This document shows positions 36,071 through 52,191 of a DNA stretch of 64,000 bases, piece by piece. This DNA is from Polycladidibacter stylochi (GTDB lineage: Bacteria > Pseudomonadota > Alphaproteobacteria > Rhizobiales > Stappiaceae): assembly GCF_001562055.1 (NCBI RefSeq), contig NZ_LLWE01000025.1, forward strand, positions 124,001 through 188,000, given 5' to 3'. The translations under genes were made by a program, and so were the position numbers. The stretch's first letter is position 1. Every line of letters starts with the position of its first letter. A model generated the notes under the pieces. That model had not been told where the DNA came from. It did not search any database and worked only from the letters and a program-made list of their open reading frames with translations.

Positions 36071-36418
<348 letters not shown>

Positions 36419-36529: not shown

Positions 36530-36889
36530 CTAGAGGCTTCGCTCTAAAAGCCCCTCAATTTCATTAAGTGTTTTTTCAGTTAAATCAAATACTTCAGCAA
36601 GTAAATCATCAGGGAGCTTCTCACTACCTACAGGTATTATCTCAATTGCTTGAGAAAGCTTAAAGGCACCAATACCAACACTTGCCCCTTTTAAACGGTG
36701 TAAGTCGTTCTCTTGCTCAAGTGCGCTGCCATTTGGCTTACGTAAACTGGCGACAAGCTCACGAACTTGGCGTTGATAAACCTGTAAAATTTCGACACAA
36801 AAACCTTGGTCTGAAAATGTAACACTTTTCAGGTGCTCTAAATCAATAAACCCGCTGCGGGCCGCCTGACCGTCCGTTTGCGTTTGCAT
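36530..36889 (-). CDS. Single-domain histidine phosphotransfer (Hpt) protein
   Basis: The 119-residue product is all helical. The Hpt motif is LHRLKGASVGIGAFKL, with the phospho-accepting histidine at H64. It lacks kinase or receiver domains, so it should pass phosphate between a hybrid kinase and a response regulator encoded elsewhere. GAGGA precedes the ATG. Its upstream region includes an exact CtrA-type site (TTAA-N7-TTAA, 37067-37081) about 180 bp away. A SixA-like phosphohistidine phosphatase at 27.5 kb could in principle act on it. Confidence 0.9.
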   Translation of the reverse strand: MQTQTDGQAARSGFIDLEHLKSVTFSDQGFCVEILQVYQRQVRELVASLRKPNGSALEQENDLHRLKGASVGIGAFKLSQAIEIIPVGSEKLPDDLLAEVFDLTEKTLNEIEGLLERSL

Positions 36890-37763: not shown

Positions 37764-40700
37764 ATGGCGAACACCCCGAAGGCGAAAGCTCCGTCGGAAG
37801 TTGCCCTCTCAGCAGTTGAAGAGGCGTTGTCCTCTGGTTTTGGCGCAATGGAAGACCAAGACGCCCTGTTTGAGAGCGACAGCAAAAAGGTTGATCAGGA
37901 AGTTAAGGATGAAGCGAGTGCTGAAAAACCGAAACTTTCAGAGGAAAAGCTCCAAGAAAAGTTGAGCGACAAATCAACCAGACCCGAGCGCAAGCGCAAT
38001 AGAGGTAGTCGCCCCCCCGCAGCCAGCAATGATGATCGCCAGTCTGTGGCCTCGCTCATGATCGCCATGCAGGCAAAGCCGTCACTGGCACCTTATTGGT
38101 TTGCATTTGCGCTCACCGTTGTTTGGGCGGGACTAGGTGCGGTTTTTGCCCGCTCCTCTTTTGATATCAATTGGGCGGCAATTACAAACTTTACCGAATT
38201 TGCGTCCTCGCCATCCTTGGTATTGGCAACCGTCGCCATTGTTATACCTGTCCTGTTCTTCTGGATGATGGCCTTTATGATTTGGCGTGCGCAAGAAATG
38301 CGCAATGTGGCCCGCTCCATGAGCGAAGTGGCTATGCGCCTTGCCGAACCAGAAGATTTTGCCCGCGAAAGCATTTTGAATGTGGGTCAAGCCATTCGCC
38401 GCGAAGTGCAAGCTATGGGCGATGGTATCGAGCGCTCCATTGCCCGCGCCGGTGAACTGGAAGTGATCTTACATAAAGAAGTTGCTTCCCTAGAAAATTC
38501 TTATAACGACAACGAAGTCAAAATCCGCCGCTTGGTAGACGAGCTGGTCTCTCAACGTGAAGCCATCCAACTCAACGCCTCGCTTGTTAAGGAAACGATC
38601 TCAGGAACCCATGAGGGCCTCGCCAGCCAGTTAAGTTCCACATCGGAGGAGTTCGCCAGCTCCGTAGATCGTGCCAGGGAACGCCTGACCACCGCCATTG
38701 AAGCCGAACTGGAAAAACTCACCGCCCGCATCGAAGAGCAAATGAGCGATGCCCGCGAGAGCTTTGTTGGCTCTGGTAGTGAAATGCTCACCTCGCTAAC
38801 CAGCCGCTCCGATGATTACGTTGAGCGCTTGACTTCAACAGGTACCGAGCTTGTTGACACCCTTACCAACTCCGGTAAAGAACTCTCCGCAACACTTTCC
38901 GAGCGCGGCAAAGAAGTAAATGATACCTTCACCAAGTCAGCCAACAAATTCGTCGATGGCCTGACCACCCGCGGTGATGAACTCAATGCCCGTCTGGCAG
39001 AAACCTCTGACAGCCTGGTCGATACGCTAAACGCCCGCTCAGATGAAATGAACAACGCACTGTCGGCTACCGGCGACAGAATTGAAGACGCACTGGAAGC
39101 ACGCTCTAACCAGGTAAGCGAACTGCTAACCCAAAAAGGCCAGATGCTTGGCAAGTCGCTCAAGCGTGCCGGTGAAGGTCTGGCCGACACGGTTGTCGAC
39201 AGCACCGAAGCGCTGCGTATTGCCCTTGAAAACAAAGGCGATAACCTTACCAGTGAAATTGAGCGTACCGCCAACAGCGTAACCAAGCGCTTTGTGGAAA
39301 CCAGTGAGCAGCTCAACGCCACACTCAACAACACCGCCACCGGTGTCACCGAGCGCTTTAATGCCGCCTCCGTTGACCTCAACACCACGCTCTCAAGTGG
39401 TCTGGAAGAGTTTAACGAAAACGTCAGTGCCGTTAGCACCCAGCTGAAAGATACTTTGATTACCACCACAGTCGAGGTAACCGACAGTATCCACGATGCC
39501 AACTCCACACTGCAAACCACAGTTGCCAGTGGCGTTACCCACATTAACGAAACCGTTGTTAGTGCCTCGGGCCAGCTTTCCACCACTGTAACAACTGGTC
39601 TGGAAGAGTTTAATGAGAATGTTTCCAGTGTTAGTGCGCAACTGCACGAAAGCCTGCGTGCCACCACCAGCGATGTGACGCAGCGCATTGAAGCATCATC
39701 AACAGAACTCTCGGCCAGCCTGTCTTACGGCATGACCAACATTACCGATACCGTGTCCAGATCGACCTCGCAGCTCAACAATGTCTTGAGCGCGAGCTTG
39801 AAGGACTTTAACGACAGCGCCACCAGCGCCAGCTCACAATTGGCAGAAACGCTATACGCCACAACCGCCAATGTGACCGACAGTATCGCAACAACAAACG
39901 AAGAGATTAACGCAACTCTCGGCGTGGGCATCACCCGCATCACCGATAAGGTGGCCGAAATGCAAGAGCAGATGGGCGAGACCTTAACCACCTCGCTCAC
40001 CGCCTTCAGTGAAGGGGTGGATGGAGCCAACCAGCGCCTCTCCGACAGTTTGCAAGCCACTACGAGCGAAATTGCCGGCAAGATTGGCTCGGTGAACGAA
40101 GAACTCGGCATTACGCTGACTTCCGGTGTCAACCATATCAACCAAACCCTGCAAGACACCACCAATACCCTTGATAGCACTGTTACCACGGGTGTGAATA
40201 CATTAACCAGCTCACTCAGCGCTGCCAGCGATGATCTCAAACAAAACCTTGAGAAAACCAGCAGTGATGTGACGGATAAAGTCGTCACAGTAAACGCAGA
40301 GCTAACCGAAACACTGGCAAACGGCGTCACAGCTGTTAACCAGAGTGTTTCCAGTGCAACCGGCAAGCTGAAAGATAGCCTTGAGGCAACCTCGACCAGC
40401 GTAACCGGTAAAGTAACGCAAGTTAACGCCGAACTGGAGCAAGCCCTTGCATCGGGCATTGCCTCCCTAACCAGTGCCATGAGCACAGCAAGTGGCGAGC
40501 TCACAGATACCCTTAATGTGACCACCAGTGAAATGACTGGTAAAATGGGTAGCATTAACAACGAGCTTGGCACCACGCTTGAAACCGGTCTCACAACAAT
40601 CAACCGCACTGTTAATGACACCACAGAGCGCTTGACCACCACATTGAACGAGACCTCTGCCACTGTGCATGAAAATTTGACAACAGCCAGCAGAACGCTA

Positions 40701-43700
40701 AACACCAGCGTCAGCGAAGCTTTGGAAAACGTCAGCAACAGCGTCGATGGCATGAATCGTCAAGTCGGGGCAACCCTTGCCTCTGGCCTCAGCACCTTGA
40801 ACCAGTCGCTTGGCGAATCCACCATGCAGCTTGACGAAGCGCTCACCGCTTCCACCGAGCAAGCAACCAGCCAGATGAGCAGCGCACGAAACACCTTGGT
40901 TGAGACCGTTTCCTCATCCCTCAAGGACGTTTCTGAAAAAGTCACCAGCATGAATGCAATGGTCGATACCACGTTGTCGACCGGTCTCAGCTCGCTAACC
41001 AATGCTGTTGACACAGCAACCGAGCGTTTGGATAACACGCTCACCAACACAACGGACCGTGTATCGAGCGATCTTAACAACGCAAGTGACAGCCTGCGCG
41101 ATACAGTTGCGACCTCGCTCAATGATGTCAGCGAAAAAGTTGACACCATGAACAATACGGTCAGCACCACCTTGTCGACCGGTATATCGGCGATGAATGA
41201 AGCCGTTGAAACAGCTTCAAGCCGCTTGCAGGTCAGCCTGAACGATACCTCGACCCGAGTTGCTGGCGAGCTCAACACCGCGCATAGCGAGTTGAATGAC
41301 ACCTTGAACAGCAAGCTGGGCCAGATTGACCAGACCCTGACCAGCGCAAACGCCCAGCTGGACAACACGCTGGCAACGGGTGTCAGCTCCATTAACGAAA
41401 CGGTTACAAGCGCAACACAGAATATTAATGCCAAGGTTTCTGCGACCACAACAGAGCTTTCCGAGCATCTTGGCTCTGAAAGTGATAGGCTCACAGTCAG
41501 CATTTCCGACACTGTAAACGCATTAACCAACCGTGTGGGCGAAGCCAATTCCAGCCTTGAGGCACACCTTTCCCATACGCTTGAAGGCATCACCACCCGC
41601 TTTATGGGTGCAGGCGAAAAACTGCACGAGCAACTGCGCAATAGCGGCGAGGAAATCAACACCAACATTTCCGAAACCGGTGGCCAGCTCATCACCACCA
41701 TAACAGCACGCTCCAACGACATCATAACAAATGTCGATGAGCGCTTTGAGAACCTTGATTTTGCCCTGCGTGAAACTGGCAGCAAAGTCTCCGAGGGGAT
41801 CGCCGAGCGTGGCCGCGAGATTAACGAAAATATCGCCGTTAACTGTAGCGAGGTTATTGACACCTTCACCAACCGCTCGAAAGAGGTTTCCGAAGTTCTC
41901 TCCGGTGCCGGCGAGAGCATTGTGGAAGATCTCTCCCTCCGCAGTTCGGAAATTGTGGGCCGCCTGAGCGATACTTCCACCAGCTTCAGCAAGACCATCA
42001 GTACGGATACCAGCGAATTTGTTGAGCGTCTTGACGATATCTCCGCCCGTATTCATGAAAGCATTACTGTTAACGGTGCAGCATTAGATGAAACCCTTGC
42101 CAACCGTGGCGCTGAACTGGCGCTGTTGATTGAAAACAAGGCCGTTGACTTCAAAGTTGCTATGGAAACAGTGAGCGGCGAAATCACCGGCTCCTTGGGT
42201 CAACGTACCGACGAGTTAACGGTAAAGCTTGCCGACACCGGTACAGAACTGGCGCGCCTCATCGGCTCCCGCTCTGAACGCTTGACGGACGAGCTGAACG
42301 AGATCAGCGATAAGTTTACCGACACCTTGGATTTGAAAGGTGGTCACTTGACTGCCAACCTTGGTGCCCGCCTGACCGAAATGGATCAGCTGGTGGGTGA
42401 CAAAGGAAATGAGCTGGTTCAATCCCTTGATTTACGCTCGCAAAACCTTTCAGCCTCAATCGACAGCCGTTTGAACACGCTGGACAACACTCTTGAGGAA
42501 CGCACCAGCGCATTTGAAAGCACGCTGGACAGCCGCGCAGGAACTCTCTCTGACACCCTGCAAAGCCGCACCCACGAGCTGAACGAAACGCTGGAAACCA
42601 GAACAACCGTTGTGGTGAATGCAATTGAGGCCGGTACTGAGCTTCTTTCCAGTACTTTGGAAGAGCAAACCGTCTCGGTTGCCAAAATCCTTGAGGATAA
42701 AACCGACATAATCGCGGTTAACCTGGCCACAAAAGTAGAGGCAGCTGGTGATACCATGACCAGCAAGGCCGAAGAAATTACCGAAGGCCTATCGGTCCGC
42801 ACCGCCAACATTGAGCAATCAATTTCTTCCTCTTTGGAAAACTTTGACAAAACAGTGGGCGATAAAGTGGAAGCAGCAGCAACCGTTATCTCCGATAAGG
42901 CAGAACACTTGGCTGGCTCCATGTCCAACGGTGCCGAGAGAATTGACCATGCATTGGATGCCCGAGCACGCCAGATAAGTGAAACACTTGTCGCCAGAAC
43001 CCGTGAAATTGCCAGTGCATTCAAGGAAGGTCAGGAAGAGATGACCGATGCCTTGGATTCGCGCTTGGAAGAAGCTGGTAAGGTCATTATTCGCCAATCG
43101 GAACAGATGACTGACGCTCTTACCAATCGTGTGGATGAAATCAACATCACACTAGGGGCCAAGGTATCGGATGTGGCTGATACGCTAGATACCCGGGCTT
43201 CCGCTTTGGAAAGCATTCTAAGCGAGCGCGTGGAAGCCATTTCCAACAAAATTGGCGGCGAGAGTGAAAAAGCAGCTTCAATTCTAACTGAAGCCCTTAG
43301 CGAAATTACAGGCTCGTTAAACACTGAAAGTGAACGTGCCCGTGAAATCATTCTTGATGTCGTTGCTAAAGCATCCCAAGCGCTGGATGAGGAACGCACC
43401 AAAACACAAGAAACTGTCACAGAGACCATGCTGGCTCTTTCCGGCACGATTTCTAGTGAAGGTGAAAAAACCGTTGCCTCTGTCAACGAGACGATGGCTT
43501 CGGCAAAAGGCAGCCTAACCGGAGAAAGCACCGCTGTTCGCGATTTGGTACTGGCAACTGTTGAAGAAGCTGCCAAGAGCATGACCGTAGAAGCGGAAAA
43601 TGCCCGTGCGGCCTACGCGCAAACATTGGCGCAAATGTCCACGAACCTGGCAACCGAAACCCAAGATGCCCGTGATGGCATGCTGGCAGCCATTGAAGAT

Positions 43701-45983
43701 GTAACCGGTCGCTTAAACGCCGAAGGTGAAAAATCGACCAAAATCATCGAAGAGTCGGTTGATAAGATCCGCGACTTGCTCGCAGGCGAATCCGCCGAAG
43801 TTAGAACCCGCGTCTTCGCAGTTATTGAAGAGGCTGCGGGAACGCTATCTGACCGCGTCCATGCCGTTTCAGAAGAATTGTTGCAAAAGGCAACCAACCT
43901 CAACGAAGCCTTTGGAACCCGTTCTTCAGAACTTTCCAGCATTATCAGCAAGGATGGTAATGATTTGATCGTGGCCATTGAGGAAAGAGCCGAAGGTCTC
44001 ACCTCGCGCGTTGAAAAAGTTCAAAGCGCGATCCTTGATGCCGTGAACGTGAAGGGCAAAGAGATGGTGGACAACTTCGCTCGCTCGGGCGTTGATGCCA
44101 CCAAAACAATGGTTGAAGCTGGTGAAAAACTGACCAATGCCATTGATGAGCGTGCCTTGGCTGCAACCAGCTCGCTAGAAACAGCCCACGATAGTTTTGC
44201 AAAACAGGTCGAGCAGCTCGTAACAACACTGGATGAGCGCGGCGATATGGCAGCAAAAGCCATGGTCAACACCCGCGAACGTCTGGAAAAAGATGTCACG
44301 AAACTACTCACCGCCACGGCTAAGCAGGGAGTTGAAATAACCAACAACCTGCAACAAAGTAGCGAGCAAGCGGCAAGTACTTTGGGCGATGCCGTGACGC
44401 AGATTAAAGAAACTATCGATCAGCACTCGCAAGAAGCCGTTGGCAAGTTGCAAACCACTAACGGCCAGCTTTCCAATGAAATTGCGAAAATTATCGAGCA
44501 ACTGGAAGGTACAAACGCCTCGCTTGGTACCATTTTGGCAACCGCCGGCAGTAACCTGACCGATGTGGAAGGTGGCCTGGCTCAACGCGCCGAAGAGTTC
44601 CGCACAGCCATTGATCGGGCTGTAAACCAGACCGAACAAGCCAACTCAACCATTGAGGCACAAGTTGAGCTGCTGCGAGAAAGCACAACTTCCGTTCTGG
44701 AAGATGCTGCCAAAATCACCAAGGGTATGGATGATCAGAACCAACAGCTTGCCAAGTCTATTCTTGATCTGGAAGACGCCAATACAGCTGTTGAAAGCCG
44801 CATTACAGATCGCCGCTTGGCAATTGAGGCCCTTTCCCAGACCTTGATTGAAAAGACATCCGGGGTTGAGGAATTGATGTCCACCTACACCGGAAACCTT
44901 GGCGATGTGCTGGAAGCTGCCGACGACAAAGCACGTCAGGTTGCGGGCATGCTGAAAGCCGCAGCAGAAGCAGCCACCAAATCCGTATCCGAACAGTTTG
45001 AAAGCATGCGGATGACGGCGGGTGTGGAAAGCCAGAAAGCAAGGGACAGCATTCGCGCTTCACAAGATGAAATCATCGGCGATATGCAAAAAACCCTTTC
45101 CGATGCTGCTGGCCAGTTTATCCAGACCACCACGCAAATGCGCGAAGTCGCTTTCCAGGTACACCAAGAACTGGAGGCAACAAGGCAAGAGCTGAATGCG
45201 GGCCTCTTGGCATTGCCAGAAGAAGCTGAAGCCTCTACCTCCGCATTGCGCCGCGTTGTCACAGACCAGGTGAAAGCACTTGAAGAGCTGTCAATGATTG
45301 TTGCCAAACAGTCTTCACAGCTTGATGTTTCCGCTCCTGGCGAAACCCGGACGCTTGCCAACCCGGAAGCTTCCCACACAAGAGCGACAACCCCTCCTGC
45401 CCCGCGCCCGGCAACACGTAAGGCCAGCGCACAAAAAGCAGAAGCAGCTCCGGCAAAAGCGGCAAAACCTGCGGCAACGAAAACCAGAGCGGCAAAGGCA
45501 AAAGAAGAGCCACAAGGCACTCAACCAGTCGATGAAAAAGGCTGGATGAGTGATTTGCTCCGCCGTGCTTCAAATGAAGCTGAGGAAAACCGCAAGAACG
45601 CAGGCCGCCAGAGCAGCCAGCCAACACGTTCTCCAAAACATGTGGTTGAGTCCTTAAATTCACTCAGCATGGATATTGCCCGCTCTGTCGATCATGAAAC
45701 ATTTGTTGATCTATGGGAGCGCTACAAACGCGGGGAACGGGACGTCTTCACACGCCGCCTTTACACGCTACAAGGCCAGCAGACATTTGACGAAATCAAG
45801 AAAAAGTACAAGCAAGATGGCGAATTCCGAGGCGCTGTTGAACAGTACATCAAGGATTTCGAACAACTGCTAACCCAAGTGTCTCGCAACGATAAAGACA
45901 ACAAAATGGCACAAACCTACCTCACCTCGGATACAGGCAAGGTTTACACCATGCTGGCTCACGCCAGTGGCCGTTTTGATTGA
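37764..45983 (+). CDS. Giant apolipoprotein-like protein, GPR/RgsE type (polar growth)
   Basis: The product has 2739 residues. Residues 1-105 are acidic then basic and probably disordered. Two transmembrane helices follow (about 110-130 and 152-174), then a linker helix and a coiled coil to about 272. Next comes an uninterrupted array of 11-residue units (274-2154), a further helical region (2155-2470), and an Ala/Pro/Lys-rich linker (about 2520-2595). The C-terminal globular domain holds SLSMDIARSVDHETF, YKRGERDVFTRRLYTLQGQ and SDTGKVYTMLAHASGRFD. This matches proteins called apolipoprotein A1/A4/E domain proteins in Hyphomicrobiales, including Agrobacterium GPR (growth pole ring) and Sinorhizobium RgsE, needed for polar growth. 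It is several hundred residues longer than GPR. GAGG precedes the ATG. Orthology is my inference from architecture and order-level signs. Confidence 0.87.
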   Translation: MANTPKAKAPSEVALSAVEEALSSGFGAMEDQDALFESDSKKVDQEVKDEASAEKPKLSEEKLQEKLSDKSTRPERKRNRGSRPPAASNDDRQSVASLMIAMQAKPSLAPYWFAFALTVVWAGLGAVFARSSFDINWAAITNFTEFASSPSLVLATVAIVIPVLFFWMMAFMIWRAQEMRNVARSMSEVAMRLAEPEDFARESILNVGQAIRREVQAMGDGIERSIARAGELEVILHKEVASLENSYNDNEVKIRRLVDELVSQREAIQLNASLVKETISGTHEGLASQLSSTSEEFASSVDRARERLTTAIEAELEKLTARIEEQMSDARESFVGSGSEMLTSLTSRSDDYVERLTSTGTELVDTLTNSGKELSATLSERGKEVNDTFTKSANKFVDGLTTRGDELNARLAETSDSLVDTLNARSDEMNNALSATGDRIEDALEARSNQVSELLTQKGQMLGKSLKRAGEGLADTVVDSTEALRIALENKGDNLTSEIERTANSVTKRFVETSEQLNATLNNTATGVTERFNAASVDLNTTLSSGLEEFNENVSAVSTQLKDTLITTTVEVTDSIHDANSTLQTTVASGVTHINETVVSASGQLSTTVTTGLEEFNENVSSVSAQLHESLRATTSDVTQRIEASSTELSASLSYGMTNITDTVSRSTSQLNNVLSASLKDFNDSATSASSQLAETLYATTANVTDSIATTNEEINATLGVGITRITDKVAEMQEQMGETLTTSLTAFSEGVDGANQRLSDSLQATTSEIAGKIGSVNEELGITLTSGVNHINQTLQDTTNTLDSTVTTGVNTLTSSLSAASDDLKQNLEKTSSDVTDKVVTVNAELTETLANGVTAVNQSVSSATGKLKDSLEATSTSVTGKVTQVNAELEQALASGIASLTSAMSTASGELTDTLNVTTSEMTGKMGSINNELGTTLETGLTTINRTVNDTTERLTTTLNETSATVHENLTTASRTLNTSVSEALENVSNSVDGMNRQVGATLASGLSTLNQSLGESTMQLDEALTASTEQATSQMSSARNTLVETVSSSLKDVSEKVTSMNAMVDTTLSTGLSSLTNAVDTATERLDNTLTNTTDRVSSDLNNASDSLRDTVATSLNDVSEKVDTMNNTVSTTLSTGISAMNEAVETASSRLQVSLNDTSTRVAGELNTAHSELNDTLNSKLGQIDQTLTSANAQLDNTLATGVSSINETVTSATQNINAKVSATTTELSEHLGSESDRLTVSISDTVNALTNRVGEANSSLEAHLSHTLEGITTRFMGAGEKLHEQLRNSGEEINTNISETGGQLITTITARSNDIITNVDERFENLDFALRETGSKVSEGIAERGREINENIAVNCSEVIDTFTNRSKEVSEVLSGAGESIVEDLSLRSSEIVGRLSDTSTSFSKTISTDTSEFVERLDDISARIHESITVNGAALDETLANRGAELALLIENKAVDFKVAMETVSGEITGSLGQRTDELTVKLADTGTELARLIGSRSERLTDELNEISDKFTDTLDLKGGHLTANLGARLTEMDQLVGDKGNELVQSLDLRSQNLSASIDSRLNTLDNTLEERTSAFESTLDSRAGTLSDTLQSRTHELNETLETRTTVVVNAIEAGTELLSSTLEEQTVSVAKILEDKTDIIAVNLATKVEAAGDTMTSKAEEITEGLSVRTANIEQSISSSLENFDKTVGDKVEAAATVISDKAEHLAGSMSNGAERIDHALDARARQISETLVARTREIASAFKEGQEEMTDALDSRLEEAGKVIIRQSEQMTDALTNRVDEINITLGAKVSDVADTLDTRASALESILSERVEAISNKIGGESEKAASILTEALSEITGSLNTESERAREIILDVVAKASQALDEERTKTQETVTETMLALSGTISSEGEKTVASVNETMASAKGSLTGESTAVRDLVLATVEEAAKSMTVEAENARAAYAQTLAQMSTNLATETQDARDGMLAAIEDVTGRLNAEGEKSTKIIEESVDKIRDLLAGESAEVRTRVFAVIEEAAGTLSDRVHAVSEELLQKATNLNEAFGTRSSELSSIISKDGNDLIVAIEERAEGLTSRVEKVQSAILDAVNVKGKEMVDNFARSGVDATKTMVEAGEKLTNAIDERALAATSSLETAHDSFAKQVEQLVTTLDERGDMAAKAMVNTRERLEKDVTKLLTATAKQGVEITNNLQQSSEQAASTLGDAVTQIKETIDQHSQEAVGKLQTTNGQLSNEIAKIIEQLEGTNASLGTILATAGSNLTDVEGGLAQRAEEFRTAIDRAVNQTEQANSTIEAQVELLRESTTSVLEDAAKITKGMDDQNQQLAKSILDLEDANTAVESRITDRRLAIEALSQTLIEKTSGVEELMSTYTGNLGDVLEAADDKARQVAGMLKAAAEAATKSVSEQFESMRMTAGVESQKARDSIRASQDEIIGDMQKTLSDAAGQFIQTTTQMREVAFQVHQELEATRQELNAGLLALPEEAEASTSALRRVVTDQVKALEELSMIVAKQSSQLDVSAPGETRTLANPEASHTRATTPPAPRPATRKASAQKAEAAPAKAAKPAATKTRAAKAKEEPQGTQPVDEKGWMSDLLRRASNEAEENRKNAGRQSSQPTRSPKHVVESLNSLSMDIARSVDHETFVDLWERYKRGERDVFTRRLYTLQGQQTFDEIKKKYKQDGEFRGAVEQYIKDFEQLLTQVSRNDKDNKMAQTYLTSDTGKVYTMLAHASGRFD
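38583..44225 (+). repeat. 171 tandem 11-residue (33-bp) units in the giant gene
   Basis: Residues 274-2154 divide into exactly 171 units of 11 residues with no insertion or deletion. The pattern has hydrophobic residues at unit positions 2, 6 and often 9 or 10 (for example ELTETLANGVT, AVNQSVSSATG, KLKDSLEATST). This hendecad spacing (4,3,4) favours long amphipathic or right-handed coiled helices. Between about residues 540 and 1180 units group into 44-residue (132-bp) super-repeats. Units are diverged, so it is not a recent DNA expansion. Before about residue 1200 units are Ser/Thr/Asn-rich; later ones are Glu/Lys/Arg/Ala-rich. Confidence 0.93.
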
Positions 45984-47893: not shown

Positions 47894-48490
47894 TCATGCA
47901 CCAAGTCTGGTGAGCACCCAGCCCGTCATATCGAGAAGGACCTGATCACTCGCAGCATTAAGCGCATCAACCCCATCATTAACCGCAAGGGTCTTGGCCG
48001 GCACTTGGCTGCGGAATAAGCGGTAGGCAACAGTTTTCCCATTATGGTCGTTCACCAGGCGCACCGCCACTTCAACAAGAGCTTGTTTAGGTTGGGTCTG
48101 CACTTCAAAACGGCGAATAGTTGTCTGCAGTTGATAATCAATCAACAATCCCTGCCCTGGTAAGGCAACACCGTTCAGCCCGCCGGTATCTTCCAAAGCA
48201 GCAACCAAATTAGCTTGAAAAACCTTGGGTAAACTATCACTCCAAGCCACCTTAGGGTAATAGGTGTAACTGGGGCCAACCTCGCTAACCGCAATATGGC
48301 TGGTGTCAAGTGCTTGCAAAGCAATCGGCTGAGCGACCAGTATTTGCTGTGAACGTGCCTTCCCTCTAAACTGCGAGGTGTCAGGAGAGCTCAAGCCGTA
48401 GAGCACATCAGGCCCGCTAGCAGCACATGCCGCCAAACCTAAAAGCAGCACACCCGAAACATAGTTTTTAAAACTGGCTATCCCTGACAC
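47894..48490 (-). CDS. ABC transport auxiliary lipoprotein (PqiC-like)
   Basis: The 198-residue product from the GTG at 48490 (AAAGG 9 nt upstream) has a lipoprotein signal with lipobox LAAC (LLGLAACAASG). A PqiC-like domain follows with VAWSDSLPKVFQANLVAALE and QLQTTIRRFEV. In MCE systems such lipoproteins contact the outer membrane and receive the lipid tunnel. It is the last gene of the mlaE-mlaF-mlaD operon, 74 bp after mlaD. A TTG at 48499 is a weaker alternative start. Confidence 0.88.
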   Translation of the reverse strand: MSGIASFKNYVSGVLLLGLAACAASGPDVLYGLSSPDTSQFRGKARSQQILVAQPIALQALDTSHIAVSEVGPSYTYYPKVAWSDSLPKVFQANLVAALEDTGGLNGVALPGQGLLIDYQLQTTIRRFEVQTQPKQALVEVAVRLVNDHNGKTVAYRLFRSQVPAKTLAVNDGVDALNAASDQVLLDMTGWVLTRLGA

Positions 48491-48564
48491 AACAGGCAAC
48501 CTTTCAATAAATTTTCATTAACTCTTATAGCTCTAGGAGATCTTACGGTAAAAATCAAAGAGTT

Positions 48565-50217
48565 TCACCGTCGTTTTGGACCGTTAAAAACCGGTGTGTC
48601 TTCGCCGCCAAAAATCACCCGGTTTGGATTCCTGTCAAAATTGGCAGCTGCACGTTCGATCTCTTTAAGCGTTCGACTGAGCTGTTGCATCGCTGCAGAA
48701 AACTCACTCGGCCCCTTGGCGCTAAACCGGCGTAAATTCGTCGTTATAGGTCCAATGCTTTCATCAAGCTTTTCCGCAACCTTGCGAATAGCCTCAAAAG
48801 CCTTTGTAGCCTCGCCAATCAGCCCTTGGCCCCCTTCCGAGTTTACCATGCCATCAACACTCGTCATCAGACCGTCCAGCTTGTCAGAGGCTTTACTCAG
48901 GTTGCCACTAACATGCTTTGCATCCGTTATGACTTGATCGATATCTCCCTTGCGCTCAGCAACACCGCTTGCAAGTGTATCAACCGATTGCGCTGCACTG
49001 GCAAAGTCATCCAGCGCCTGTTCAACCTTGCCACTCTTACCAGCAAGAGAGGCCGTAACCTGCTCAATATCGCCTATAATATTTGAGAGTTTGTTTTGGT
49101 CCACTGCTTGGCTAATACCGCTAATATTCGTTGCAGCATCACGCACGTTAACAACAGCTTCATCTGTATTTTTCAAGATGTTTTTAAACCGCCCCTTTTC
49201 GCCAGCAACTTCGGCTGTAACCGCGGCAGCATCACGTGTGATATCACGGCTGGAGACAACAATTTCATCCATCTCACGCTCACGCGATTTCATAAGCTTG
49301 CCAAGGCTAGCAGCACCTGCCATCACATCTTGAACCTGCTCAGGCTTCACGGCTGTAAGAATCTGGTCCACACCACTTAAGCTCTTGTTGAGCCCTTCAC
49401 CAAACCGGTCAAACTGCTTTGTTGCCTTTTTGATATCTGTAACCGCCTCGTTAATACCTGTTCCAGATTTTGCCAAATCTGCTGTAAGCGTTTCTGTATT
49501 CTCGACAATTTTACCCAGCTTATCGGGTGGAACATTGGCAAGCAGGACCTCACCACGGTCCACCAGATTACCAATACGACCTGAGAGATCGGTTATCGCC
49601 TTGGATGTATCGGAAATATTGCCCATGAAGCTTCTCACACCATCCGAGTTGGCCGCCAATGCATCACTAAACTTGGCAAAGTTTTGTATACCGCGCTTAA
49701 TGTCGGGTTTACTATCTGCAACCAAAACATCAATATTGCCCAAAGTTTGGTCTGCCTTGCGCAAAATATCCTTGGCCCCTTGCAAAAGGTCTTCAAACTG
49801 GGAACGCTGCGCATAAATAACTGGAACTTCGTCGTCTTCAGCATCAAACAAAGGCTCAGCAAGTTGCGAGCCACCGGTTAAGTCCACATAGGCAACACCA
49901 GTAAGCCCGGTAAAGCCCAAAGTGGCCACGCTATCCTTACGCAGCGGTGTGCTCACATCAACCCGCACGGTTGCAATCACCAGCTTGGGGTTTGTCGGGT
50001 CAAAAGTTAAATTGGTAACATCGCCAATTTTGATGCCGTTAAATAAGACACTCCCCCCCTTGGGTAAGCCGGTAACAGCACCGGGGAAAACCACTTTGAT
50101 ATCACGCTTTTCCGTGCCTTCACTTGAGCTCATAAGCCAAAAAGTGAAGATAAACATTGATGCAATAACGGCAAGAACAAAACTGCCTATAACCAATGTA
50201 TTGGCCCGGGTTTCCAT
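48565..50217 (-). CDS. mlaD: MlaD-like MCE protein, long form
   Basis: MCE proteins bind and pass phospholipids between membranes. The 550-residue product has one N-terminal transmembrane helix (about 8-29) and one MCE domain (about 38-116, FPGAVTGLPKGGSVLFNGIKIG). A very long helical tail (about 140-530) consists of short repeated amphipathic helices. E. coli MlaD has 183 residues, so this long form, common in alphaproteobacteria, may use the tail as a periplasm-spanning tube, as in LetB or PqiB-type assemblies. It starts 9 bp after mlaF. Confidence 0.92.
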   Translation of the reverse strand: METRANTLVIGSFVLAVIASMFIFTFWLMSSSEGTEKRDIKVVFPGAVTGLPKGGSVLFNGIKIGDVTNLTFDPTNPKLVIATVRVDVSTPLRKDSVATLGFTGLTGVAYVDLTGGSQLAEPLFDAEDDEVPVIYAQRSQFEDLLQGAKDILRKADQTLGNIDVLVADSKPDIKRGIQNFAKFSDALAANSDGVRSFMGNISDTSKAITDLSGRIGNLVDRGEVLLANVPPDKLGKIVENTETLTADLAKSGTGINEAVTDIKKATKQFDRFGEGLNKSLSGVDQILTAVKPEQVQDVMAGAASLGKLMKSREREMDEIVVSSRDITRDAAAVTAEVAGEKGRFKNILKNTDEAVVNVRDAATNISGISQAVDQNKLSNIIGDIEQVTASLAGKSGKVEQALDDFASAAQSVDTLASGVAERKGDIDQVITDAKHVSGNLSKASDKLDGLMTSVDGMVNSEGGQGLIGEATKAFEAIRKVAEKLDESIGPITTNLRRFSAKGPSEFSAAMQQLSRTLKEIERAAANFDRNPNRVIFGGEDTPVFNGPKRR

Positions 50218-50226
50218 ATGCTATCC

Positions 50227-51039
50227 TCACACCCTTTTCAGGGCGCGTGCCCCACAAAAATAATTTTGTACCCAAGGGTGGTCGAATGCCATCATATCCT
50301 CAAGAGTACCGTCAACTAAAACTCTACGATCACCAAGAACCGCAATACGATCGCAAATACTGTGCAAACTATCCAGATCGTGCGTAACCATATAAACCGT
50401 TAATCCCAGTGTTTCCCTTAGCTTGGCAATCAAATCGTCAAATTCGGCTGCGCCAATCGGGTCTAGCCCCGAGGTGGGCTCATCCAAAAACACCAATTCA
50501 GGATCCAGTGCTAACGAGCGGGCAAGAGCTGCCCGTTTAATCATACCGCCAGAAAGCTCCGACGGATACTTATCCGCAGCTTCCCGCGGCAACCCAACCA
50601 TCTCGACTTTTAAAACCGCGAGCTCATCCATGAGCTTTTGCGGTAGCTTGAGATACTCGCGCATGGGAACTTGAATGTTTTGCCGTACTGTGAGCGAGGA
50701 AAAGAGCGCGCCTTGTTGAAACAATACACCCCAACGGCGTTCAACGTATTTACGTTCCCGCTCGCTGATTTTCTCCAATTGCCGACCGAAAACAGTAATT
50801 GCACCGGATTGCTTACGATTAAGCCCTAATATCGTGCGCATCAACACTGATTTGCCCATACCGGAACCGCCAACAAACCCCAAAATTTCACCGCGATACA
50901 AATCAAGGCTCAGGTGTTGTAAAACCGAAAAGCCGCTAAAAGAGACACTGATCTTATCGGCCCTTAAAATCACTTCGCGGCCGCTTTGATCAAGAATGCA
51001 GTCCATAGGCTTATTGTCTTTGCTTACATGCGCAATCAT
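50227..51039 (-). CDS. mlaF: MlaF-like ABC transporter ATPase
   Basis: ATPase of a lipid ABC transporter. The 270-residue product has Walker A at 57-64 (GGSGMGKS), the Q-loop LFQQGALFSSLT, the signature at 162-166 (LSGGM, then IKRAALARSLALDP), Walker B at 182-189 (LVFLDEPT) and the switch His in VTHDLDSL. It begins 3 bp after the mlaE stop. Together with MlaE, MlaD and the lipoprotein it makes a complete inner-membrane module; a soluble MlaC carrier is absent from this operon. Confidence 0.95.
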   Translation of the reverse strand: MIAHVSKDNKPMDCILDQSGREVILRADKISVSFSGFSVLQHLSLDLYRGEILGFVGGSGMGKSVLMRTILGLNRKQSGAITVFGRQLEKISERERKYVERRWGVLFQQGALFSSLTVRQNIQVPMREYLKLPQKLMDELAVLKVEMVGLPREAADKYPSELSGGMIKRAALARSLALDPELVFLDEPTSGLDPIGAAEFDDLIAKLRETLGLTVYMVTHDLDSLHSICDRIAVLGDRRVLVDGTLEDMMAFDHPWVQNYFCGARALKRV

Positions 51040-51042
51040 CCA

Positions 51043-52191
51043 TTAAAGCCCTATTGCTGCAAAAAACATGGCAAACACACCATCAACAAAGATAACCATA
51101 AAAATGGATTTTACGACAGATGACGTGGTTTTGGAACCAAGGGATTCAGCGGAGCCCTCCACTTTCATTCCCTCAACACAAGCAACCAGGCCAATGATAA
51201 GCGCCATAAACGGCGCTTTAATAATACCAATAAACAAGGTCTCAACCGTCACCGCAGCCTGCAACTGCGAGAAGTAGGCATTGGGCAAAATATCCAAGTA
51301 AGCCCAGCAGACAAATCCCGCACCAACCAGCGCCGCAATATCCGATAAAAATACAAGAAGCGGCATAGCCAACATTAAAGCCACAATGCGCGGCATCACC
51401 AGAACTTCTGTAATACGCAAGCCAATGACATTGAGGGCATCCACTTCTTCACGCATTTTCATCGAGCCAAGTTCGGCCGTAAAAGCAGACCCTGAACGCC
51501 CTGCCACCATAATCGCCGTGAGGATAACGCCAATTTCGCGCAGCACCAGAACCCCGGAGAGGTTGACAACAAACATATCTGCTCCGAATTGCCGCAGATA
51601 AAATCCACCTTGTTGGGCAATAATCCCGCCAATAAGCAAGCTCATCAACATCACAATGGGCACAGCGCCCATGCACGTTTTTTGAAATTGTACCGCAATC
51701 GATATAGGGCGAAGCCGCCTTGGTTGTGCAATAACTGCTGCTGTATTCAGCGCAATAGAGCCCAGAGTGCCTGTAAGGTCCTTAATGTCTTCAATAACTT
51801 CCAGCGTCACTTCACCTGTCGATTCAAGAGTACGCAGCCAAACCGATTTGGCCTCGCGTCGTTTGAACAACTCGGGATGGTGACGCCCCACCTCATCAAG
51901 AAGAACCTGGAATGTGTCCTTTACCTGCAAAAATCGCACCTTATGCCCTTGTGCCTCCAACTCGGCACGCGTGCGCAATAGCAACCAGGCTCCAGAAGTA
52001 TCCAACCGTTGTATCTGTGAAAAATCGACTTGGATTTCGCCATGTGGCCGCTGCGCAAGCTGTATTGCAAGCTCGCTTTCAAGAGCAGCGATATGCGAAA
52101 CAATCCAAGCACCTTTGGCTTTCAAATAGCCCGTTTGACCATCGATCAGAAACATAAGCGATGCTTCATTGTCTATAACATTGCGCCCCAT
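51043..52191 (-). CDS. mlaE: MlaE-like permease with N-terminal STAS domain
   Basis: The 382-residue product combines an N-terminal STAS domain (about 15-115, QVDFSQIQRLDTSGAWLLLR) with the MlaE/permease domain (about 150-380). Typical stretches are REIGVILTAIMVAGRSGSAFTAELGSMKMREEVDALNVIG and four or five membrane segments. In E. coli MlaE and the STAS protein MlaB are separate; here they are fused, as in many alphaproteobacteria. It heads the leftward operon; a 234-bp divergent gap separates it from the epimerase gene. Confidence 0.94.
   Translation of the reverse strand: MGRNVIDNEASLMFLIDGQTGYLKAKGAWIVSHIAALESELAIQLAQRPHGEIQVDFSQIQRLDTSGAWLLLRTRAELEAQGHKVRFLQVKDTFQVLLDEVGRHHPELFKRREAKSVWLRTLESTGEVTLEVIEDIKDLTGTLGSIALNTAAVIAQPRRLRPISIAVQFQKTCMGAVPIVMLMSLLIGGIIAQQGGFYLRQFGADMFVVNLSGVLVLREIGVILTAIMVAGRSGSAFTAELGSMKMREEVDALNVIGLRITEVLVMPRIVALMLAMPLLVFLSDIAALVGAGFVCWAYLDILPNAYFSQLQAAVTVETLFIGIIKAPFMALIIGLVACVEGMKVEGSAESLGSKTTSSVVKSIFMVIFVDGVFAMFFAAIGL

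Follow-up and report, generated by a model that had tools for sequence, protein, structure and literature searches.

Register and length of the 11-residue repeat array in a Stappiaceae orthologue of the growth-pole protein GPR/RgsE

In rod-shaped Hyphomicrobiales (Rhizobiales), GPR acts as the organiser of the growth pole. Its probable orthologue in the window, the 64,000-nucleotide stretch of Polycladidibacter stylochi DNA analysed here (source genome of 3.68 Mb in 43 contigs, family Stappiaceae), contains a run of 1866 residues that keeps an 11-residue register without a slip, and comparison with its relatives suggests, at the level of sequence, that this array gains and loses length mostly as whole units or whole helical turns. 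The protein is of a known kind; what appears to be new is the measurable length grammar of its array, which we did not find described. We give a probability of roughly 0.55 to the reading that the array forms a membrane-anchored, continuous, parallel, in-register homo-oligomeric hendecad rod. The features of the window to which we refer are the following.

36071-36391, minus strand: 2Fe-2S ferredoxin gene, upstream of gpr
36530-36889, minus strand: small ORF with an HRLKGAS motif
37764-45983, plus strand: gpr/rgsE orthologue, 2739 aa, the single match in its own genome
38094..38150, plus strand: hydrophobic segment 1, probably transmembrane, residues 111-129 (hydropathy; AF2 helix 109-133)
38196..38294, plus strand: hydrophobic segment 2, probably transmembrane, residues 145-177 (hydropathy; AF2 helix 150-194)
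38277..38582, plus strand: conserved juxtamembrane helical region, residues 172-273, running into the array
38583..44225, plus strand: array of 171 units of 11 residues, residues 274-2154
38592-44189, plus strand: slip-free core of the array by HMM, residues 277-2142
39441..41486, plus strand: array units 27-88, Ser/Thr-rich, with a super-repeat of 66 residues (31% identity at this lag)
44190..45146, plus strand: helical region after the array, residues 2143-2461, whose phase shifts regularly by 3 and 7 residues
45627..45980, plus strand: conserved, all-helical C-terminal domain, residues 2622-2739
47894-52191, minus strand: mla/mce lipid-transport operon (auxiliary lipoprotein, MlaD, ATPase, MlaE), convergent with and downstream of gpr

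The assignment to GPR/RgsE proposed in the earlier note was upheld, and on sequence grounds we regard the protein as a well-supported Pseudovibrio (Stappiaceae) orthologue of this known family: it matches PF01442 at 413 bits (cut-off 90) in 15 stretches covering most of the protein, has two probable membrane segments, and has N- and C-terminal homologues throughout the order, including Shinella, Hoeflea, and Xaviernesmea loci. Orthology was drawn from this shared architecture and distribution, not from direct alignment with Atu1348 or SMc00190. The C-terminal 139 residues had a homologue in 85 of 85 family genomes and in 389 of 397 order genomes, in agreement with the published presence of RgsE homologues across all Rhizobiales families (PMC7327166). 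Like the window protein, GPR (Atu1348, 2115 aa) and RgsE (SMc00190, 2089 aa) have two N-terminal membrane helices, a long PF01442 region, a low-complexity stretch, a conserved C-terminal end, and an order-wide distribution; unlike them, the window protein is 2739 residues long with a slip-free hendecad run of 1866. RgsE is described as a large protein containing repeats and as many as ten apolipoprotein domains, and deletion of rgsE in S. meliloti Rm2011 leaves a strain that grows (PMC7327166); the 2115-residue GPR of A. tumefaciens is described as having two membrane helices and 1,700 residues of continuous helix and as appearing in six foci that form a 200-nm ring (PMC8262873). The suggestion that the window protein exceeds known GPR in length was correct against the published 2115 and 2089 residues but not among 137 orthologues, of which seven have longer open frames, that of the window being the eighth longest. 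In the portions of the published accounts that we covered, GPR/RgsE is described in terms of apolipoprotein domains, short coiled coils, and repeats, not of an 11-residue register or quantised length. We found neither property described for GPR in the literature searched, which consisted mostly of papers outside subscription, and the main text of PMC8262873 contains neither "repeat" nor "11 amino".

Two hydrophobic segments, at residues 111-129 and 143-177, precede the array and exceed 1.6 in hydropathy; their interpretation as membrane helices draws on this and on the AF2 helices. For residues 96-500, AF2 predicted long helices that connect the second membrane helix with the array; near residues 337-349 the helix breaks at low confidence, and the pTM is 0.26. 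Residues 274-2400 are without proline, and the net charge of residues 274-2154 is -152. The post-array region (2143-2461) has a stronger 18/5 periodicity and a phase-shift pattern that is alike across the genus, and beyond residue ~2461 a linker is followed by the conserved C-terminal domain, which has 64 invariant columns in a 180-residue alignment of 44 sequences.

The earlier division of the translation into 171 units is arithmetically correct, with residue 274 starting at 38583, residue 2154 ending at 44225, and 1881 = 171 x 11. The accompanying claim of an unbroken phase stood for nearly all of the array: a 12-state register HMM in which slips were allowed found none over residues 277-2142 (169.6 units), but it placed a phase shift at about residue 2143, followed by mixed spacing up to about 2461, so that the last one or two units are ambiguous. 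Among the hydrophobic unit positions that had been named, 2 and 6 were confirmed, being hydrophobic in 153 and 170 of 171 units (the sole exception at position 6 is an Ala in unit 38), whereas "9/10" was an overstatement, with only 10% of units hydrophobic at position 9 and 26% at position 10. The spectrum of hydrophobicity (ILMFVWY) had the anticipated peak at 3.667 residues, and this periodicity together with continuous core positions is that of a hendecad coiled coil. Chance periodicity was ruled out by 2000 shuffles, in which the best-phase hydrophobic fraction never exceeded 0.374 (observed, 0.994). Power at 11/3 was 219 against at most 13.7 in 2000 order shuffles that kept the hydrophobic spacings, so the register lock exceeds that of a generic amphipathic helix without register, which was thereby ruled out as well. 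An assembly artefact was rejected as the origin of the array because the units of the window are too diverged to be found by TRF as a tandem DNA repeat. Toward the C-terminal end the pattern weakens, with 13 of the 18 exceptions at position 2 falling in units 143-170. Across units 143-171 (43269-44225) Ala is frequent at position 2, and hydrophobic residues or Ala become commoner at position 10, as if the stripe were slowly turning toward this end of the array.

For comparison among relatives, 137 of 161 proteins were kept after removal of 17 genome repeats and seven proteins without a good N anchor. The slip-free run of 1866 residues in the window protein was the longest among them; within Pseudovibrio this run varied from 122.5 to 169.6 units, or by about 38%. 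Phase slips called by the HMM were 3, 7, 10, or 6 modulo 11 in 1229 of 1253 cases, although the HMM favours such slips by construction. Array length was taken as the spacing from residue 231, a conserved N-terminal anchor, to residue 2468, the C-terminal anchor. The 16 Pseudovibrio orthologues had 12 distinct lengths in only two residue classes modulo 11, with 1731, 2193, and 2237 in class 4 and 1823, 1845, 1867, 1889, 1911, 1955, 1977, 2087, and 2153 in class 8, and within each class every difference was a multiple of 22. In a tree built from the non-repeat parts, class 4 fell apart into two clades, one of L002/L003 and one of the window protein with L006, so that the genus must have undergone two or more shifts of 4 or 7 residues. 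The expectation that arrays of one clade should differ by multiples of 11 therefore held within each class but not between the two, which differ by 4 or 7 residues. Among 25 proteins from the rest of the family we found class 1 (14), class 8 (8), and class 4 (1), in steps of 7 residues, with L035 and L041 unclassed where the N anchor fails; all 11 length classes occur in the wider order, and many also among the non-Stappiaceae named loci.

Gaps in pairwise alignments followed the same pattern. In the 15 Pseudovibrio pairs whose arrays reach an identity of 0.86 or more, drawn from a set of 27 and sharing members so that they are not independent, all 22 array gaps were multiples of 22, and each of the 21 gaps outside the array was 1-7 residues long. 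Over the 27 pairs, compared without the near-identical L010, L011, and L013, multiples of 11 made up 72 of 90 gaps in the array versus 1 of 77 outside; the other 18 array gaps came from diverged pairs, some being compensating and some being 62 residues long (66 minus 4) at the class shift. L002 and L003 aligned over 1731 residues without a gap at 86% identity. In 14 pairs with array identity of at least 0.87, the gaps of L004, L005, L007, L008, L009, L012, and L014 all lay in mid-array, at offsets of 511-821 from the N anchor, with constant end lengths.

Among 46 disjoint orthologue pairs, gaps were multiples of 11 in 74 of 117 cases within the array versus 1 of 160 outside, and gaps of at most 6 residues numbered 4 in 65,396 array residues versus 146 in 17,910 residues outside (Fisher p 2e-91), all four in the array coming from pairs below 0.67 identity. 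Sequence outside the array includes flexible linkers, and a fairer control is MlaD, which is encoded in the adjacent operon and has a helical tail. This tail had 6 small gaps in 10,669 residues over 26 pairs, versus none in 33,819 residues of the GPR arrays of the same 26 pairs, counted in pairs with both anchors (L105 is without one), where 28 of 40 gaps were multiples of 11. Relative to a structured control, then, small indels are suppressed several-fold at least, not 130-fold.

Tandem DNA repeats in the 137 arrays numbered 251 rows. In 247 of these the period was 24 nt or longer and always a multiple of 3; the remaining four had periods of 15, 19, 21, and 21 nt. Expressed in residues, 198 of the 247 periods were multiples of 11, one was 8, and 48 were 18, 29, 36, 40, 47, 51, 58, 62, 65, 69, 80, 87, 94, 120, or 159. 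The first 13 of these non-11 values (18-94) each correspond to an integral number of helical turns if 3.60-3.65 residues make up a turn, while period 8 fails; the corresponding chance product of about 7e-7 is rough, given a range chosen post hoc and periods that are not fully independent. The 15 non-11 values listed also all take the form 11a+7b, as does any number above 59, so only the seven from 18 to 58 are informative. Other clades repeat in whole helical turns, of 29 or 40 residues for example. Near-identical tandem expansions were present in other genera at residues 860-1065 of L074, 1476-1716 of L109, and 1224-1460 of L154, with periods of 29, 66, and 94 residues and 94-96% DNA matches.

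Selection differed by helix face. Across the 46 pairs, dN/dS was 0.067-0.069 at positions 9, 2, and 6, 0.091 at 10, 0.105 at 3, 0.13 at 1 and 5, 0.154 at 7, and 0.208-0.223 at 11, 4, and 8, a profile that forms a single smooth lobe about the helix, with its centre on the stripe but of greater width. For the pair L002/L003, polar flanking positions 1, 3, and 5 were about as conserved as the core (0.032-0.059) and more so than in the pooled pairs, but with dS of about 1.2 these ratios are rough, and two closer pairs had too few changes to tell. We read the breadth of the conserved lobe as a sign that helices pack against each other to either side of the stripe, a pattern with which a lipid-facing helix would also be compatible. 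The strong structural selection claimed in the earlier note was borne out by the scarcity of small indels, the lowest dN/dS on the stripe, and the occurrence of only 60 prolines in 176,319 array residues (153 arrays, some genomes repeated), but recombination between in-phase repeats also produces whole-unit length changes, so selection is only part of the cause.

In the model that we favour, two N-terminal membrane helices would hold GPR in the inner membrane, and a nearly continuous helix would lead from the membrane into the cytoplasm. Several chains would associate laterally, parallel to each other and in register, by contacts at stripe positions 9-2-6-10, with the conserved helical C-terminal domain at the far end of the rod. 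Duplication or loss of in-phase segments by mutation would alter the length, and selection would remove indels that turn the stripe. We infer the oligomerisation, the parallel orientation, and the cytoplasmic extension of the rod, and likewise a scaffold role at the pole, for which we draw on published work in A. tumefaciens and S. meliloti. If fully helical, the array would span about 280 nm, by arithmetic on an assumed continuous helix. The register lock, the scarcity of small indels, the length quantum, the conserved face, the few prolines, and the predicted helices all speak for the rod; against it stand the observation that only two of eleven positions are strongly hydrophobic, the low-confidence break at residues 337-349 and pTM of 0.26 in the AF2 model, and the fact that recombination alone would also be expected to give whole-unit changes.

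In the main rival, which we consider a real but clearly lesser possibility, the array would lie on the inner membrane or other lipid as a giant amphipathic helix, with the 11-residue lock keeping one face turned lipidward. The PF01442 match above the gathering score, structure matches to ApoA-IV, ApoA-I, and ApoE, and the mla/mce lipid-transport operon adjoining gpr in most loci examined are in keeping with such a helix, as is the precedent of perilipin 4, in which 29 tandem 33-mers without indels form a weakly hydrophobic 3-11 helix (PMC5889406). Perilipin 4 and the GPR array are alike in being very long, uninterrupted 11-mer helices with a weak hydrophobic face, but the perilipin 33-mers are strongly conserved and carry a net charge of +1, and changing this to -1 per 33-mer abolished droplet targeting (PMC5889406), whereas GPR bears membrane helices and the net charge was negative in 153 of 153 arrays, some from repeated genomes (-0.046 to -0.093 per residue). 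A HeliQuest-type score was likewise negative on average, exceeding 0.68 in 2.6% of windows, and the polar flanks 1, 3, and 5 were about as conserved as the core in L002/L003 and intermediate in the 46 pairs. The charge, -152 in the window array, and the score make a lipid coat less probable.

It is unlikely that the quantised length is a mere by-product of recombination or slippage between in-phase copies, with selection acting only for an amphipathic helix. Such exchange would account for the 132-nt tandem DNA units, 91-92% alike, in L016 and L010, for the within-class differences in multiples of 22, and for the strongest self-similarity at lag 22 or 44 in most Pseudovibrio arrays, but it leaves unexplained the near absence of gaps of 1-6 residues relative both to the sequence outside and to the MlaD tail, as well as the phase-dependent dN/dS, and TRF detected no tandem DNA repeat in the window array. 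We find it more improbable still that the array folds as separate apolipoprotein-like bundles, each a long helix with a three-helix bundle, as in the SWISS-MODEL models built on ApoA-IV (PMC8262873): bundles need turns, so the few prolines and the unbroken phase count against them, and AF2 predicted long helices over residues 96-500.

Known systems offer partial parallels to the proposed rod. TolQ belongs to the MotA/TolQ/ExbB family, for whose channel domain there was no Pfam match in the whole window protein or in residues 96-273, and no ZorB-like Pfam match was found among 17 neighbours scanned. A two-hybrid signal was obtained between RgsE of S. meliloti and TolQ (PMC7327166), and the GPR profile matched the ZorA structures 8vvn (E 6e-4) and 8qyd (E 9e-4); the cytoplasmic residues of ZorA form a pentameric rod (PMC11890865). 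Among solved structures found, the ZorA tail of Zorya is the closest parallel, and by analogy it may be likened to GPR as a membrane-anchored, long helical cytoplasmic rod with profile similarity, although the GPR array is about four times longer than ZorA residues 237-696. The N-terminal GPR profile had a far better match in ApoA-IV (E 8e-25) and better ones in the designed bundles 4tql (E 2e-7) and 4uos (E 6e-7), and since these outrank ZorA, such matches may only reflect shared helical periodicity. Membership in ZorA was rejected despite a PADLOC E value of 2e-49, the best stretches lying in the tail of the models; the PADLOC ZorA3 match and the NCBIfam ZorA match (6e-27, below its cut-off) are a trap for automatic defence-system annotation. 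Phage tape-measure proteins also have lengths set in 11-residue units, and their mixed period 11-11-18 (= 40) resembles in kind the periods of 29 and 40 in GPR relatives (PMC3271669), but GPR is cellular, membrane-anchored, and without a tryptophan or phenylalanine marker residue, and it is not known to measure a length.

Published deletions in A. tumefaciens GPR bear on the rod in part. The 20-aa deletion A-IV-4cc interfered most strongly when mixed with wild type, and alone gave paired foci and partial complementation (PMC8262873), behaviour that fits in part what in-register homo-oligomers would predict. A-IV-1cc, another 20-aa deletion, also interfered, yet gave paired foci with or without wild type and complemented well alone (PMC8262873), so not every register-breaking deletion is severe. 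In our reading these deletions may act through the register; a loss of 20 or 21 residues does not amount to a whole number of 11-residue units.

Downstream of gpr, 62 of the 73 named loci that comprise at least 20 kb of sequence carry an mlaF homologue on the opposite strand; across the order, 13 of 20 loci have mla homologues no further than 9 kb downstream. This neighbourhood hints at a link between GPR and envelope lipids. A homologue of the ferredoxin was found at E 1e-5 in 77 of 80 named loci, with its position checked in five examples. The small ORF at 36530-36889 had no Pfam match and only weak homologues, in 17 of 80 loci; judged by eye from its HRLKGAS motif, it resembles an Hpt phosphotransfer protein.

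The earlier note had further suggested that unit number may set ring geometry. In its full form, with GPR as a register-locked molecular ruler whose rods of ~200-300 nm set the reach or diameter of the growth-pole ring by their number of units, we consider this doubtful; if it were true, Pseudovibrio species, with ~122 to 170 units, would tune their pole geometry by pairs of hendecads. The present results suggest that a published 20-aa deletion may break the register rather than remove a special coiled coil. The whole-hendecad length rule, together with the length variation within one genus, constitutes a natural experiment on how the growth-pole ring is built.
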